Part shown: positions 5,746-58,822 of the stretch, piece by piece
How the letters are laid out: each line of letters starts with the position of its first letter
Numbering within the stretch: position 1 is the first letter of the stretch
Source: Collinsella sp. An307
GTDB lineage: Bacteria > Actinomycetota > Coriobacteriia > Coriobacteriales > Coriobacteriaceae
Reading direction: 5' to 3'
Length of the DNA: 64,000 nucleotides
Assembly: GCF_002161805.1 (NCBI RefSeq)
Contig: NZ_NFIP01000004.1
Coordinates: 62,001 to 126,000, forward strand
Program-made: the position numbers and the translations under genes
The notes under the pieces: model-generated
Seen by the model: the letters and a program-made list of their open reading frames with translations, nothing else
Told to the model about the DNA's origin: nothing
Databases searched by the model: none

Positions 5746-5838
5746 GCACGCCGAAAACCCGCCCAGGCAAGCTGGTACGGACCAGTCGTTATGTTTTGCC
5801 CTATCTTAGCGCACAGCAGCGACGCGAATGCCTCGTCC

Positions 5839-6963
5839 ATGCAGACCCTAGTCATCCCTACCAAGCGGCAATATTTTGCACTACCTGTAGACTCTTCATA
5901 TCATTCAACAGCAGATATCGTGGCTGACGCACGGACCATTATCGAAAGCGCCCACGACGCCGCACGCCGCTCCGTCAACACAACCCTGGTGCTGCGCAAC
6001 TGGTATTTGGGCAAGCGCATTGCTGAGGAGGAGCTCAAAGGCGCCGATCGTGCGGAATACGGCAAGCAGGTCATCGAGCGACTCTCCAACGAGCTTAAAA
6101 CTGTGGGCAAAGGATTTAGCAAACAGGAGCTTCACAAATATGTTCAGTTCTACCGCCTGTTTCCCACAATTGTCGACTCAGCGAGTCGACAATTGGCGCA
6201 CAGGCTATCTTGGACGCATTATCGCGAGCTTCTACGCATTAGTAACGACGGTGCGCGCACATGGTATGCACGCGAAGCATCCGAGCAAGGATGGAGCGTC
6301 CGCACGCTCGCGCGGAACATTGGCACCAAGTACTATGAGCGCCTGCTCCTCTCGGGAAATAAAACGCCCGTGGAACAGGAGATGCGAACAAAAGCCGCAC
6401 CGTACCAAACGCGCGCGTATCGCGTTGCCGAGTTCGTCAAAGACCCTTACGTTGCCGAGTTCCTCGGCTTCTCACCCGATGCCGAGGCGCGCGAGACAGA
6501 TCTGGAAAGCGCCATACTCGCCAACCTCCAAAAGTTCCTCCTGGAGATGGGCAAAGGTTATGCCTTTATGGGACGCCAATACCATCTGCGCGGCATGAGC
6601 GGGGACTACTACATCGGCCTCATCTTCTACAACGTCATCCTTAAGTGCTACGTACTCGTGGACCTCAAATGCGGGCCCGTCACCCATCAAGACATCGGAC
6701 AGATGGACATGTATGTCCGCATGTTTGACGACAAGATACGACGCGCCGATGATAATCCCACCATAGGCATCGTCCTCACCTCGGAAACAAGCGCAGACAT
6801 TGCCCGCTACTCTGTCCTGCACGATAGCGACCAGCTCTATGCAAGCAGCTACCTGCTCTATCTCCCGAGCGAGGACGAGCTGCGCCAAGCCATAGAGACC
6901 GAAAAACAGCGGTTCGCCTTACGGGGCGGGCAGACAAGTGAAGCAGGGGCGATCGCTAGATAA
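5839..6963 (+). CDS. DUF1016 (YhcG-type) PDDEXK nuclease-family protein with substituted catalytic Asp
   Basis: A 374-residue protein. An N-terminal DUF1016_N helical domain (about 20-170; GKRIAEEELKGADRAEYGKQ, KGFSKQELHKYVQFY) precedes a C-terminal PDDEXK nuclease-like domain (about 210-360; FLLEMGKGYAFMGRQY, VLVDLKCG, THQDIGQMDMYVR). In the family the first catalytic aspartate sits in the motif IDL(I/V)FYN. Here residue 260 is Gly (GGC at 6616-6618), reading YYIGLIFYN, one base from GAC. The DxK of VDLK (275-277) is kept. The protein may therefore be inactive as a nuclease. The start is uncertain: ATG 5791 is an in-frame alternative and neither has a clear SD. The 3' end overlaps the convergent HAD gene by 8 bases. 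Family members occur near restriction systems, but none is here. Confidence 0.85.
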   Translation: MQTLVIPTKRQYFALPVDSSYHSTADIVADARTIIESAHDAARRSVNTTLVLRNWYLGKRIAEEELKGADRAEYGKQVIERLSNELKTVGKGFSKQELHKYVQFYRLFPTIVDSASRQLAHRLSWTHYRELLRISNDGARTWYAREASEQGWSVRTLARNIGTKYYERLLLSGNKTPVEQEMRTKAAPYQTRAYRVAEFVKDPYVAEFLGFSPDAEARETDLESAILANLQKFLLEMGKGYAFMGRQYHLRGMSGDYYIGLIFYNVILKCYVLVDLKCGPVTHQDIGQMDMYVRMFDDKIRRADDNPTIGIVLTSETSADIARYSVLHDSDQLYASSYLLYLPSEDELRQAIETEKQRFALRGGQTSEAGAIAR

Positions 6964-54140: not shown

Positions 54141-54155
54141 CTGCTCCAATGGAAC

Positions 54156-54191
54156 AGGGACGGTACCAGCGATACCGCCAGAACCGTCCCT
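54156..54191 (-). terminator. Terminator-like hairpin downstream of cstA
   Basis: Arms AGGGACGGT (54156-54164) and ACCGTCCCT (54183-54191) pair over 9 bp around an 18-base loop, 42 bases past the cstA stop on the minus strand. No U-run follows. Confidence 0.5.
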
Positions 54192-54232
54192 TCACTCGAG
54201 AGCATCCTAATAGTTCTCAAGAAACCATGGCG

Positions 54233-56071
54233 CTACGCGCGGGCGCTGGCACCCTCTGCGGGAGCGTCCGCCGCGTCGGGACGCGCGCAATGGGCGCGAC
54301 CGAGCTCGGTCCACTCGGGCTCCTCGTCGGGAAGCGAGCCCGCTTCCTTGGTGAAGAACTCCTTCAGGCAGTTGTACGCCACGATTACGCCAAGGACCAT
54401 CAGCAGAATCGCAAACACGAGCTGCAGGCCGGACGTTGCGATAACCGCAACGCCGCTCGTCTGGAGCGCGGTGATGCAGCCGAGCGTGGACTGCACGAGC
54501 GACGTAAACGTGGAGCACAGCAGAAAGACCACGGGCACGTAGAGCATGAAGCCGCGACGGCCAGTGCACTTGCAGAACACCGCGAGCGTGATCATGGTCA
54601 TGCCACCGAGAAGCTGGTTGGAAGCACCAAAGAGCGGCCAGATGTTGGTGTAGCCGCCAAAGGCGAGCGCGAGGCCAAGGGCGAGCGTGAGCACGGTGGC
54701 GACCCAGGTGTTAGAAAGGACCTTGGCGGCGCCGGTAAGCTCGGCCTGCTCATCCTCAAGCGCGTCGTTGCTCTTGGCAAAGAACTCCTGGAAGGAGAGG
54801 CGGCCGATACGCGCGACGGCATCAACCGAGGTAAGGGCGAGTGCAGAGACGCACATGGTCATAAAGACCGTGGCGAGCGTCGAGTCGACCCCAAAGGCGG
54901 TCATACCGCGGGCGACGCCCTGGCTGAAGATCTGGAACGGAGTGCCCACCTGCGCTCCACCCGCACCGGAGGTGTTCATGGTCGTGAACATGATAGCGGC
55001 AAACACGATGGCGAGCACGCCCACAAAGGACTCGAGCACCATGGCGCCGTAGCCCACCACGACCATATCCTGCTCCTTCTCCACCTGCTTGGAGGAGGTA
55101 TTGGTGGAGACAAGGCTGTGGAAGCCCGAGAGCGCGCCGCAGGCAACAGACACAAACAGCAGCGGGAACACGTAGCTGCCACCCTCGGCGAGCGCGCCAA
55201 AATCGGCGACCATCGGGGCAGTCATCTCGGCATTGCCACCGAGCGCGAGCACAAAGATGCCCACCACGGCGCAACCGATCATGACGAGCATCATGATGCT
55301 CGTGAGGTAGTCGCGCGGCTGCTTGAGCACCTGGATGGGCATGGCCGCCGCAAAGAGCAGGTACACCGTGATAACCGCGAACCAACCCATCTTATCGAGG
55401 TAGACCGGGAACTGCATACCGACGGCAAACATGGCCACAAAGAGCACGACGCCCACCGCAAGCTCACGCCAGCCGGTGAGGTTGAAACGGCGGCACACCC
55501 AGCCAAAGGCAATGGCAACAAAGGTGAAGAGGATCGAGATGGTGCCCGCCGTACCGCCAAAGTACGAGGCGGCCGTGTCGACGGCGCCCGAGGCGTCAGT
55601 CACCGTCATGAAGGTGCCCGCAACCATATCGACAAAAGCAGCGATCACGATGATGGTGAAAAGCCAGCTGAAGAGCAAGAAGAGCTTGCGGCCGGTGCGA
55701 CCGATGTACTTCTCAATCAACTGGGCAAGGGACTTGCCGTTGTTCTTCACGCTTGCGTACAGCGCGCCGAAGTCGTGCACCGCACCAAAGAAGATGCCGC
55801 CCACAAGCACCCACAGAAGCACCGGCAACCAGCCGAACATCATGGCGGCGATGGTGCCCGTGACAGGGCCCGCGCCGCAGATGGAGCTGAACTGATGCGA
55901 GAACACCGTGAAGCACGACGCGGGCGAGAAGTTCTTCCCGTCCTCCATGCGGCGCGCAGGGGTGAGCGCCTCGGCGTCCACGCCCCAGGTGCGGGCGAGC
56001 CAGCGCCCGTAGAGCAGATAGCCGACGGCGAGCACCACCGCCGCGGCAAGCACAACCAACAAACCGTTCAT
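54233..56071 (-). CDS. cstA: Carbon starvation protein CstA (peptide/pyruvate transporter)
   Basis: A 612-residue membrane protein with about 15-16 helices. Family hallmarks are GYLLYGRWLARTWGVD near residue 20, the motif SFTVFSHQFSSICGAGPVTGTIAAMMFGW-like region near 60-90 (SCFTVFSHQFSSICGAGPVT), and FGASNQLLGGMTMITLAV near 500. CstA proteins import peptides or pyruvate. ATG 56071 follows AAGGGGG by eight bases; longer frames run into the leader and are unlikely. The gene sits behind a leader peptide and an intrinsic terminator (56113-56144), so attenuation control is likely. Confidence 0.93.
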   Translation of the reverse strand: MNGLLVVLAAAVVLAVGYLLYGRWLARTWGVDAEALTPARRMEDGKNFSPASCFTVFSHQFSSICGAGPVTGTIAAMMFGWLPVLLWVLVGGIFFGAVHDFGALYASVKNNGKSLAQLIEKYIGRTGRKLFLLFSWLFTIIVIAAFVDMVAGTFMTVTDASGAVDTAASYFGGTAGTISILFTFVAIAFGWVCRRFNLTGWRELAVGVVLFVAMFAVGMQFPVYLDKMGWFAVITVYLLFAAAMPIQVLKQPRDYLTSIMMLVMIGCAVVGIFVLALGGNAEMTAPMVADFGALAEGGSYVFPLLFVSVACGALSGFHSLVSTNTSSKQVEKEQDMVVVGYGAMVLESFVGVLAIVFAAIMFTTMNTSGAGGAQVGTPFQIFSQGVARGMTAFGVDSTLATVFMTMCVSALALTSVDAVARIGRLSFQEFFAKSNDALEDEQAELTGAAKVLSNTWVATVLTLALGLALAFGGYTNIWPLFGASNQLLGGMTMITLAVFCKCTGRRGFMLYVPVVFLLCSTFTSLVQSTLGCITALQTSGVAVIATSGLQLVFAILLMVLGVIVAYNCLKEFFTKEAGSLPDEEPEWTELGRAHCARPDAADAPAEGASARA

Positions 56072-56100
56072 ACGAAATGCCCCCTTCAGAACCATCGCAA

Positions 56101-56197
56101 CGCAAACAAAACGCGGGGCCGTCGCATTCGGTCGACGGCCCCGCTCAGGACCGGTCCGCTTATGTAGCGCGGACCGGTATGGCACCTATCCGCGCTA
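56101..56197 (-). promoter_or_regulatory. Candidate transcription attenuator in the cstA leader
   Basis: In RNA order on the minus strand: segment 1 UAGCGCGGA (56197-56189, overlapping the leader stop codon); segment 2 UCCGCGCUA (56173-56165), a perfect 9-bp complement of segment 1; segment 3 GCGGACCGGU (56159-56150), which pairs 10 bp with ACCGGUCCGC (56178-56169); then the terminator. Segments 1:2 and 2:3 exclude each other. CGGUCC of segment 3 can also pair with GGGCCG of the terminator 5' arm (one G-U), giving an antiterminator. This is the layout of ribosome-controlled attenuation. Confidence 0.65.
56113..56144 (-). terminator. Intrinsic terminator upstream of cstA
   Basis: Arms GCGGGGCCGTCG and CGACGGCCCCGC form a perfect 12-bp stem with an 8-base loop. 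On the minus strand it is followed by GTTTTGTTTG. It lies 42 bases before the cstA start and after the leader-peptide ORF, so it can terminate transcription before cstA. Confidence 0.8.
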
Positions 56198-56239
56198 GGC
56201 AATAATCTCAATAGCGATAGATAGATGACGTACGTTCAT
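56195..56239 (-). CDS. Leader peptide of cstA (14 residues)
   Basis: ATG 56239 to TAG 56195 encodes MNVRHLSIAIEIIA, with AAAAGGA nine bases upstream. Four of 14 residues are Ile. The stop codon lies in the first base of segment 1 of the attenuator, so a ribosome at the stop would cover segment 1, whereas one stalled at Ile codons would not. It is too short to be a functional protein. Confidence 0.6.
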   Translation of the reverse strand: MNVRHLSIAIEIIA

Positions 56240-56304
56240 GTTGCGCGATCCTTTTGGTATCGGGTGCCGGCTCTGCGCCAGCACGTCTCGTTCCAACGAA
56301 AGGC

Positions 56305-56333
56305 AGTATCGCGCTTTAGTTTGATGGAGTCAA
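56305..56333 (-). promoter_or_regulatory. Candidate cstA promoter
   Basis: TTGACT (56333-56328) and GATACT (56310-56305) with a 17-bp spacer on the minus strand. This predicts a leader of about 225 nt before cstA, with the peptide ORF starting some 60 nt in. Confidence 0.5.
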
Positions 56334-56422: not shown

Positions 56423-58822
56423 CTACTGGTCGTCCTTTGGGTTGAGCGGGTGTGCTTTGGGCGCGAGCGCCGCGCAGAACTTGGTCAGCGCGTCGCGCAC
56501 CGCCACGACCGCCGGATCATCGGTATGGTCCTCGGGATGGAGCGGCAGGTCGTTCTTAATGGCGTCGTAAACCAGGTTGATGTACTCCTTGGCGCCCGAG
56601 GACGATAGATGCGTGCCGTCGCCGTCAAAGAGGTCGTTGCGCCCCGCCGAGTAGCTATACCAGTCGATAACGCGCACGTTGGCATAACGCTCCGCCGCGC
56701 GGCCGATGGCGTCGTTGGTCGCCTGGACCCAGGGCTGAGGGCTGCGCGTGTTCACGAACACGGCAATGCGATCCTCCCCCACTGTCGCCATAAGGCCGTC
56801 GATTGCCTCGTCGGTCACCAGACCATTCGTGCCGAGGGCAAACACGGCAATCTTTCCAGCAAGGTTTTGCTGGACGTAGCTCGCATAGGACTCCGCGCCG
56901 GCCGAGAACTGGCGGCTCTTTGCCGCGTCGATGTGCCCATGCGGGAAGGTCGACTCAAAGTCGGGCACGGCGCGCAGCGACACGGAGTCGCCCACCATGA
57001 CCACGTCGTAGGAGCCCTCCGGGAATCCGTCCTCGCCCGCAACGACCGCATCGGTGGAAGTATCTTCTGCCGCACCCTGATCGGAGGCGTCCGGCGCTGC
57101 CTCGGTGTCGCCATCTCCGGTGGTGTCTGCCGCATCGGCATCCGCCGCAGCATCCTCCTCGGTGTTGAGCACCGCCGCGCCCTCAGCGGAGAGCGCCGAG
57201 GTGTCCGGCACAAAGGCCAGGCCGCCCAAGGCGACGGCAAGCACGAGCGCCAGGGCGCCCGCGCGCACCGGATAGGCGCGCACGATACTCGCCGGCGTCG
57301 CACCCTCGGCACGCACACGGCGCAGGAAGGCGCCAAGGACGCCCTTGCGGAACGGCGTCTCGATAAAGCGATAGGAAATCTCTGCCGCCGCCACCACAAC
57401 GAGCGCCTGAATGATGAGCATCCACCACGGGGTCTCGTTGATGTTGGAAACTGGGTTCATGAGCAGAAGCAACGGGTAGTGCCAGAGGTAAATGCTGTAC
57501 GAGCGCTGGCCGAGCCACACAAGCGGCGGCAGCGAGAGCGCGCGGGCGACCATACCGCCCGGCTGGACGGCGGCGGCGATGACCATGAGGGTCAGCACGG
57601 TGGCGAGCAGCGTGCCGCCCTGGTACTGGAACGCGGTGTATCCGTTGGTGAAGAGCACCATGAGCACAAGGCCAGCGATACCGATGAGACCGATCACATC
57701 GAGCTGCCAGACCTTGTCGCCCTCGGCCACTCCCGCAGCGCCGCGGCGCGAGGGGCGCGATGCTGCGGCACCGTATGTGCTCGGGGTGGCCGCGTTAAGC
57801 GCGGCGAGTTCCTCGGGCGTGAGCGCCTCGGCATCGGCATCGTTTTCTGCAAGCGCCGGCAGGAAACGGTCAAGGCCGAGCACGCGCACCAGGCGCGCGG
57901 GGCGCATAGACCCCTCGGGAATAAACGCGAGCCAGGCACCCAACAGCAGCGAGAACGCGCGGGTATCGGTTCCGTAGTACAGACGGCTCGGGTCGGCCGC
58001 CGGATCATAGAGAAGCGTCATCGCCGCCGCCGAGACGATGGCAAGCACAAGCACAAAGCGGCGCGCCACGCGGTGACGGATGCCGACGCGCAGCATCACC
58101 AGAAGAACCGGCGGCCAGACGAGGTAGAACTGCTCCTCGATGGCGAGCGACCAGAAGTGCGTAAGCGGCGAGGGATCGCCGAGCGCGTTGAAGTACGAGA
58201 CGTTGTTGAAGATCTGCCACCAGTTGTTGACGAACAAAAGCGACGGGATGATGTCCGGGCGCATCTTGGTGAGCATAACGTGGTTGAAGATGGTGCAGAG
58301 CACGATAGTGACAACCACAACGGTCACGATTGCCGGCAGCAAACGACGAATGCGGCGCAACCAGAAGCTCTTGAGGTCGATCTTGCCCGACTGGTCAAAC
58401 TCCGCGATAAGAAGGCGCGTGATGAGGTAGCCGGACAGGACGAAGAACATCGTCACGCCAAGAAGGCCACCCTGCGCCCAAGGCAGATGCAGATGGTAGA
58501 GCACCACCGCGATGACGGCGAGCGTACGAATGCCATCGAGGGCGGGGATGTAGCGCATACGGCGCGGCGTGGACTCAGGCACCGCCGCTGCGGAAGCAGA
58601 CGCGGCAGAAGGACGAGCACCGGCGCTGCGGGAAGCAACGCTCGCGCGGCGAGCGGAGCCGCTCTGGGAGGCAACAGGTCTTTGGCCGGCAACGGGGCGC
58701 CCCGCGCCCGCGCGGCGCTGCGATGCGCGCGAAGACGCGGACGGGCGACGACTCGAGCTGGGTTGAAATGAATAAGGCAACATAGGCAGCAGGTATATCC
58801 GTTTCTCAGACTCTACAGCCAC
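56423..58822 (-). CDS. Acyltransferase 3 family protein with C-terminal SGNH domain (OafA/YrhL type)
   Basis: A protein of up to 799 residues that probably O-acetylates surface polysaccharide or peptidoglycan. An N-terminal Ser/Arg/Ala-rich tail (about 1-85) is followed by the acyltransferase-3 membrane domain: MRYIPALDGIRTLAVIAVVLYH near residue 88, SGYLITRLLI, LLPAIVTVVV and FWSLAIEEQFYLVWP with about ten helices. A periplasmic SGNH domain holds block I GDSVSLRAV near 611 and block V DGTHLSSSG near 736. A Thr/Asp/Ala-rich linker joins them. The start is uncertain: GTG 58822 or ATG 58783, neither with a clear SD. Confidence 0.92.
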   Translation of the reverse strand: MAVESEKRIYLLPMLPYSFQPSSSRRPSASSRASQRRAGAGRPVAGQRPVASQSGSARRASVASRSAGARPSAASASAAAVPESTPRRMRYIPALDGIRTLAVIAVVLYHLHLPWAQGGLLGVTMFFVLSGYLITRLLIAEFDQSGKIDLKSFWLRRIRRLLPAIVTVVVVTIVLCTIFNHVMLTKMRPDIIPSLLFVNNWWQIFNNVSYFNALGDPSPLTHFWSLAIEEQFYLVWPPVLLVMLRVGIRHRVARRFVLVLAIVSAAAMTLLYDPAADPSRLYYGTDTRAFSLLLGAWLAFIPEGSMRPARLVRVLGLDRFLPALAENDADAEALTPEELAALNAATPSTYGAAASRPSRRGAAGVAEGDKVWQLDVIGLIGIAGLVLMVLFTNGYTAFQYQGGTLLATVLTLMVIAAAVQPGGMVARALSLPPLVWLGQRSYSIYLWHYPLLLLMNPVSNINETPWWMLIIQALVVVAAAEISYRFIETPFRKGVLGAFLRRVRAEGATPASIVRAYPVRAGALALVLAVALGGLAFVPDTSALSAEGAAVLNTEEDAAADADAADTTGDGDTEAAPDASDQGAAEDTSTDAVVAGEDGFPEGSYDVVMVGDSVSLRAVPDFESTFPHGHIDAAKSRQFSAGAESYASYVQQNLAGKIAVFALGTNGLVTDEAIDGLMATVGEDRIAVFVNTRSPQPWVQATNDAIGRAAERYANVRVIDWYSYSAGRNDLFDGDGTHLSSSGAKEYINLVYDAIKNDLPLHPEDHTDDPAVVAVRDALTKFCAALAPKAHPLNPKDDQ

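Follow-up and report, generated by a model that had tools for sequence, protein, structure and literature searches.

The attenuator of the his operon in Escherichia coli and Salmonella is built from six pairing arms, A to F, and the enteric leu leader carries fixed rare CUA codons that heighten its sensitivity to Leu-tRNA. In actinobacteria, a short Ile/Leu/Val-rich ORF precedes a terminator in the ilvB leaders (PMC1262725) and in the Corynebacterium ilvB-II motif (PMC10272879), both of which belong to ilvB operons for biosynthesis. The abstract of PMC1262725 names candidate elements of which none lies ahead of cstA, and PMC10272879 makes no mention of this gene. Here we describe a leader upstream of cstA in a 64,000-nucleotide stretch of DNA from Collinsella sp. 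An307 (the window), which is very probably a ribosome-mediated transcription attenuator of the his/ilv type. It resembles the his attenuator in having a leader ORF with regulatory codons, an OFF structure composed of A:B, C:D, and E:F, an ON structure composed of B:C and D:E, and an intrinsic terminator before the first gene. It differs in that the codons are those of Ile, together with a fixed rare Leu codon (CUA), rather than His, that the target is a CstA transporter rather than a biosynthetic operon, and that the host belongs to Coriobacteriia. Unlike the ilvB leaders and the ilvB-II motif, it does not precede an ilvB operon, and the ilvD-ilvB-ilvN-ilvC genes of the same genome, which lie away from cstA, gave no match to a covariance model of the leader. 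The mechanism is classical, whereas the target and the RNA family are apparently new; the literature searched, which took in only a minor part of the subscription journals, yielded no account of attenuation through a leader peptide at cstA or in Collinsella.

The whole leader lies on the minus strand, at about 56333-56103, and its elements were placed at the following exact coordinates.

56328..56333, minus strand, -35 element TTGACT, from the sequence and its conservation in leaders
56305..56310, minus strand, -10 element GATACT, 17 nt after TTGACT
56246..56254, minus strand, ribosome-binding site of the leader ORF, AAAGGATCG, from the sequence
56195..56239, minus strand, leader peptide ORF of 14 codons, MNVRHLSIAIEIIA followed by a stop, codon 6 being CUA (Leu) and codons 8, 10, 12, and 13 specifying Ile
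56219..56227, minus strand, arm A, within the leader ORF, from folding and the own-partner duplex test of A:B
56183..56197, minus strand, arm B, which holds the ORF stop codon
56165..56178, minus strand, arm C, which pairs with B or D
56147..56159, minus strand, arm D, which pairs with C or E
56133..56144, minus strand, arm E, the 5' half of the terminator, with D as its alternative partner, from alignment and covariation
56113..56124, minus strand, arm F, the 3' half of the terminator, from alignment and covariation
56103..56112, minus strand, U-rich tail of the terminator, GUUUUGUUUG, from the sequence
56085-56080, minus strand, possible ribosome-binding site of cstA, AGGGGG, from the sequence
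54233..56071, minus strand, cstA, the regulated gene, encoding a CstA-family transporter of 612 aa by Pfam profile, with its ATG at 56071

Arm A, CAUCUAUCU (56227-56219), pairs with GGAUAGGUG of arm B (56191-56183), which joins early ORF codons to the loop past the stop. The segment UAGCGCGGA of arm B, which overlaps GGAUAGGUG, alternatively pairs with UCCGCGCUA of arm C over 9 bp (56197-56189 with 56173-56165), the stop codon lying in the first arm. Arm C can instead form a 10-bp hairpin with arm D through ACCGGUCCGC and GCGGACCGGU (56178-56169 with 56159-56150). The antiterminator pairing of D with E joins CGGUCCU to GGGGCCG (56153-56147 with 56142-56136), and E and F form the 12-bp terminator (56144-56133 with 56124-56113). 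The promoter, the ORF with its ribosome-binding site, the pairs, the hairpin, and the terminator that the original prediction had placed before cstA were thus all found; arm A, with the A:B pairing, was not explicitly among its elements. The minimum free energy of a 246-nt leader is -106.3 kcal/mol compared with -81.0 in shuffled sequences (z = -5.5), and none of 200 shuffles is as stable. Across the whole window, tRNA is the only match to Rfam 15 at the gathering score, and the best Rfam match within the leader reaches 13.4 bits against a gathering score of 49.5. The downstream gene matches the CstA family PF02554 at 468 bits; the sole NCBIfam match of the protein, pyruvate/proton symporter CstA, falls far short of the cut-off of 1188 with 177 bits. 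A 672-codon open frame on the plus strand (54149-56167) is antisense to all of cstA and is probably a by-product of the codon bias that accompanies high GC content.

CstA was found in 64 of the 67 Coriobacteriaceae genomes examined, and at all 56 loci read in this family the gene is preceded by a short ORF rich in Ile. A terminator was located by script at 55 of the 56 loci and by eye at L020, where the T run is short. Because the same arrangement precedes cstA throughout the family with different sequences, the layout is not due to chance. A sigma-70-like promoter, with a TTGAC-like -35 element and a -10 element spaced at 16-18 nt, is located 35-73 nt upstream of the leader ORF in 33 of 35 distinct leaders, which makes a transcription start downstream of 56195 unlikely.

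Most of the alternative pairings show compensatory change or own-partner complementarity. The OFF pairs in C:D and E:F are 91.5% standard, with 13 pairs changed on both sides against a shuffled mean of 5.9, and their covariation score of 0.289 (0.155 shuffled) was not reached in any of 500 shuffles. For the ON pairs in B:C and D:E, which were specified by hand because the automatic RNAalifold consensus retained only C:D and E:F, 86.3% are standard, 7 are changed on both sides (shuffled mean 3.3), and the score is 0.218 (0.157 shuffled; 0 of 500). Slid-partner controls score lower for both structures. All seven double-sided changes in the ON structure lie in B:C, the D:E pairs being altered on a single side where they vary. 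Column 113 in arm C covaries both with column 83 in arm B (13 cells double-changed) and with column 124 in arm D (12 cells double-changed), so the two mutually exclusive helices B:C and C:D can be traced at a single base. Duplexes of A:B, B:C, C:D, and E:F are stronger between arms of the same leader than between swapped arms, with no excess in negative-control arm pairs; for A:B the difference has z = -5.0 (0 of 5000 permutations), phylogeny being handled in this and the ORF-swap test only by the use of distinct peptides. When ORFs were swapped between leaders, the expected number of A:B pairs dropped from 6.4 to 3.8 (p = 0.0005), and the ribosome-free D:E probability rose from 0.51 to 0.61 (p = 0.017). 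D:E showed no own-partner preference in the energy test, which, like its scant covariation, is explained by the near-invariance of the D and E arms: at least 7 contiguous pairs are present in nearly all leaders, and the variants include GCGGCUUU:GGAGCCGC and GGCGGCUU:AAGCCGCU. An antiterminator and an intrinsic terminator that exclude each other are therefore both conserved, the former being supported mainly by the near-invariance of D:E. With the leader ORF kept at every locus and compensatory changes in B:C, C:D, and E:F, the ribosome-controlled attenuator that had been proposed from the window alone is supported by its relatives.

The leader ORF is enriched in the codons of one amino acid near the switch, as in the his/trp/ilv class. 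Ile accounts for 32% of residues in the 35 distinct leader peptides and for 6% in a background drawn from only 10 genes of the genome of the window, the same small set being used for codon usage below. At least three Ile residues are present in 34 of the 35 peptides, mostly just upstream of the stop. AUU makes up 68% of the leader Ile codons (18% in the background), and GUA 8 of the 14 Val codons (3.4% in the background). All 35 distinct leaders contain CUA, which supplies 41 of their 54 Leu codons but 0.7% of those in the background. Its third base has a mean pairing of 0.48, a value obtained in asking whether pairing accounts for the invariant CUA. The conserved rare codon suggests that the leader may sense Leu jointly with Ile, which the original prediction did not include.

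To relate the position of the ribosome to the switch, the RNA downstream of a ribosome set at each codon was folded before arm F is transcribed, and the probability of D:E was recorded. In this calculation, a ribosome at any of codons -8 to -3 gives a mean probability of 0.84-0.87, one at the stop gives 0.35, and the ribosome-free RNA gives 0.51. The Ile and CUA codons lie mostly inside the predicted ON zone. In 24 leaders from other loci, which had no part in setting up the calculation, the values are 0.90-0.94 at these ORF codons, 0.55 at the stop, and 0.70 without a ribosome. Across the family, a stall on the regulatory codons is thus calculated to favor the antiterminator and arrival at the stop to favor the terminator. 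The effect is weak in the leader of the window, where D:E has a probability of 0.76-1.00 for ribosomes within the ORF, 0.57 for one at the stop, and 0.87 without a ribosome; this weak equilibrium switch, the chief reservation about the model, implies that the OFF state there depends on co-transcriptional order.

On these computational grounds, we propose that RNA polymerase starts just past TTGACT-17-GATACT and that a ribosome follows onto the 14-codon ORF. When Ile-tRNA is well charged, the ribosome would get to the stop codon and cover arm B, allowing C:D and E:F to form and transcription to terminate in the U-rich tail. When Ile-tRNA is scarce, and probably also Leu-tRNA by way of the invariant CUA, the ribosome would stall on or past arm A. 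B:C would then form, D would capture E, and in place of termination cstA would be transcribed. If the ORF is not translated, A:B would favor the OFF state. Control by Ile, which we infer, would turn cstA on when branched-chain amino acids are scarce, plausibly for CstA to import peptides as a source of Ile and Leu or pyruvate as a precursor of both.

A covariance model trained on 37 leaders and scanned across 398 Coriobacteriia genomes matched in 89 of them, two further families being represented; matches within Coriobacteriaceae are expected by construction, and those elsewhere mostly are not. Outside Coriobacteriaceae, the leaders stand before cstA, before MHS-type MFS transporters (TIGR00883 at 386 bits, under the cut-off of 443), and before an HpaH/MhpD-like protein. 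Isoleucine is also indicated at cstA, independently, in another lineage by a different RNA mechanism. Two Lachnospiraceae cstA genes, from Falcatimonas sp. and Roseburia porci (CstA proteins 51-54% identical), carry a T-box (RF00230) at L123:1982-2336 and L124:2163-2425, respectively, with cstA at 2501; the matches of 86.2 and 85.9 bits (E about 2e-19) fall just below the curated cut-off of 93. The specifier of both reads AUC (Ile); its position was calibrated with a pair of leuS T-boxes from these genomes, where the triplet is CUC. The same gene family is thereby placed under control of tRNA charging, although a T-box binds tRNA directly whereas the element in the window would act through a translating ribosome. 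A T-box near cstA1 is also described in Bacillus methanolicus by authors who were doubtful of its regulating that gene (PMC4342826). In the leader of the window, no T-box was matched at the gathering score or at E values up to 10.

These comparisons bear on other ways of reading the leader. If rare codons (CUA, AUU, and GUA) simply slow the ribosome, the switch would report overall translation capacity and not one amino acid, and the preference for these codons over the 10-gene background would be accounted for. Such a sensor would have no need of 32% Ile, however, the leaders of other families, which look unrelated, retain Ile codons but not always CUA, and an Ile T-box precedes the two Lachnospiraceae cstA genes; we regard it as unlikely. 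Between the two inputs that the original prediction had offered, isoleucine or general translation speed, the same three observations favor Ile over speed alone. Nascent-peptide arrest of the TnaC/ErmCL type, in which a small molecule causes the finished peptide to halt its ribosome at the stop or close to it and this halt sets the RNA switch, is distinctly improbable. It would fit the Ile found at codon -2 in 32 of 35 distinct peptides and the L-x-I-I-S-x-I-I pattern that recurs in many of them, and a stall close to the ORF end could alter folding; yet the folding calculation predicts OFF for a ribosome halted at the stop codon. The TnaC/Erm class moreover needs a conserved peptide, whereas the 35 distinct peptides are fixed only in Ile near the stop and in a Leu, range in length from 11 to 17, and share the RNA layout with no fixed sequence (for example, MFVAAALILSNLIIC, MGVSTLAEVIIII, MRQTSLVIRLIIS, MSMRRHELLLEIISIV, and MLSIRAIKIIGIIEII). 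This free variation argues for the reading of codons over peptide arrest. Most leaders have 3-5 scattered Ile codons and no long run, which counts against the attenuator, as does the lack of the leader at some Atopobiaceae cstA genes.

The hairpins could also be a conserved terminator next to a chance, non-regulatory ORF, serving to end transcription from the acyltransferase gene upstream or forming an element that binds a protein or a ligand. That gene (56423-58822) is co-directional with cstA, with about 90 bases between its end and the promoter. A conserved promoter nevertheless sits between it and the ORF, the ORF, the position of its stop, and the mutually exclusive pairings are conserved together, and the leader matches no Rfam family, so that this explanation has very little probability.

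Returning to attenuation by a ribosome that reads Ile codons, the genome has an ilv set that is apparently complete (Pfam profiles identify ilvC and ilvD; ilvA-, ilvB-, and ilvN-like neighbors were recognized from sequence only), and a limitation for Ile could therefore be met by synthesis or uptake. Upstream of ilvD in this genome, the T-box model matches weakly and under its cut-off (34.5 bits, E 4e-6; L181:2268-2461, or G000:C1 about 5767-5960). Ile, Leu, and Val are synthesized from pyruvate and can be obtained directly from peptides. The E. coli homologues of CstA are reported to carry pyruvate or peptides (PMC5847655, PMC7730263). The convergence of two lineages on Ile control of cstA through two RNA mechanisms suggests that the role of CstA is tied to branched-chain amino-acid supply, a link that bears on whether CstA in these bacteria imports peptides or pyruvate. 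If the proposal is correct, a transporter joins the targets of ribosome-mediated attenuation, and Coriobacteriia, which are common gut bacteria, gain an attenuator family of their own. A wider reading, quite possible though short of probable, is that this family extends across the class, senses Ile and Leu charging jointly, and governs not biosynthesis but the uptake of carbon and amino acids (CstA and MHS-type transporters), which would link the import of pyruvate or peptides to branched-chain amino-acid supply, with the two Lachnospiraceae cstA genes reaching the same control by Ile T-boxes.

Several further observations were made during the scan. In the genome of the window, only the cstA leader passes the threshold of the covariance model. 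Weak or partial matches in two genomes of the same class (G124 and G147; L178 and L176) look like chance resemblances to the terminator, and a match before a CobW-like gene (L173) looks like another. Some cstA genes of Atopobiaceae (Olsenella and Thermophilibacter) have no leader; these (L083-L094 and L128) share a conserved block resembling GTGAACGGTATGTTTC...GGTTAGCGGT about 100-130 nt upstream, which is perhaps another regulatory site. The related Ile/Leu leaders before MHS-type MFS transporters were found at L161, L164, L167, L169-L172, L174, and L175 in other Coriobacteriia families. One Collinsella genome has extra copies of the leader before a PanE-like reductase and an HpaH/MhpD-like protein, and this attenuator type precedes a PanE/ApbA-family reductase (peptide MLSIRAIKIIGIIEII) and HpaH/MhpD-like proteins at L160 (G029:C6:5000-5165), L165, and L168. 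A Leu-rich variant of the leader peptide, MLIGLLDMLVLLIS, occurs with the same RNA layout at L126 and L151-L153, before cstA wherever the downstream gene is readable, and its composition suggests that the sensed amino acid may have changed.
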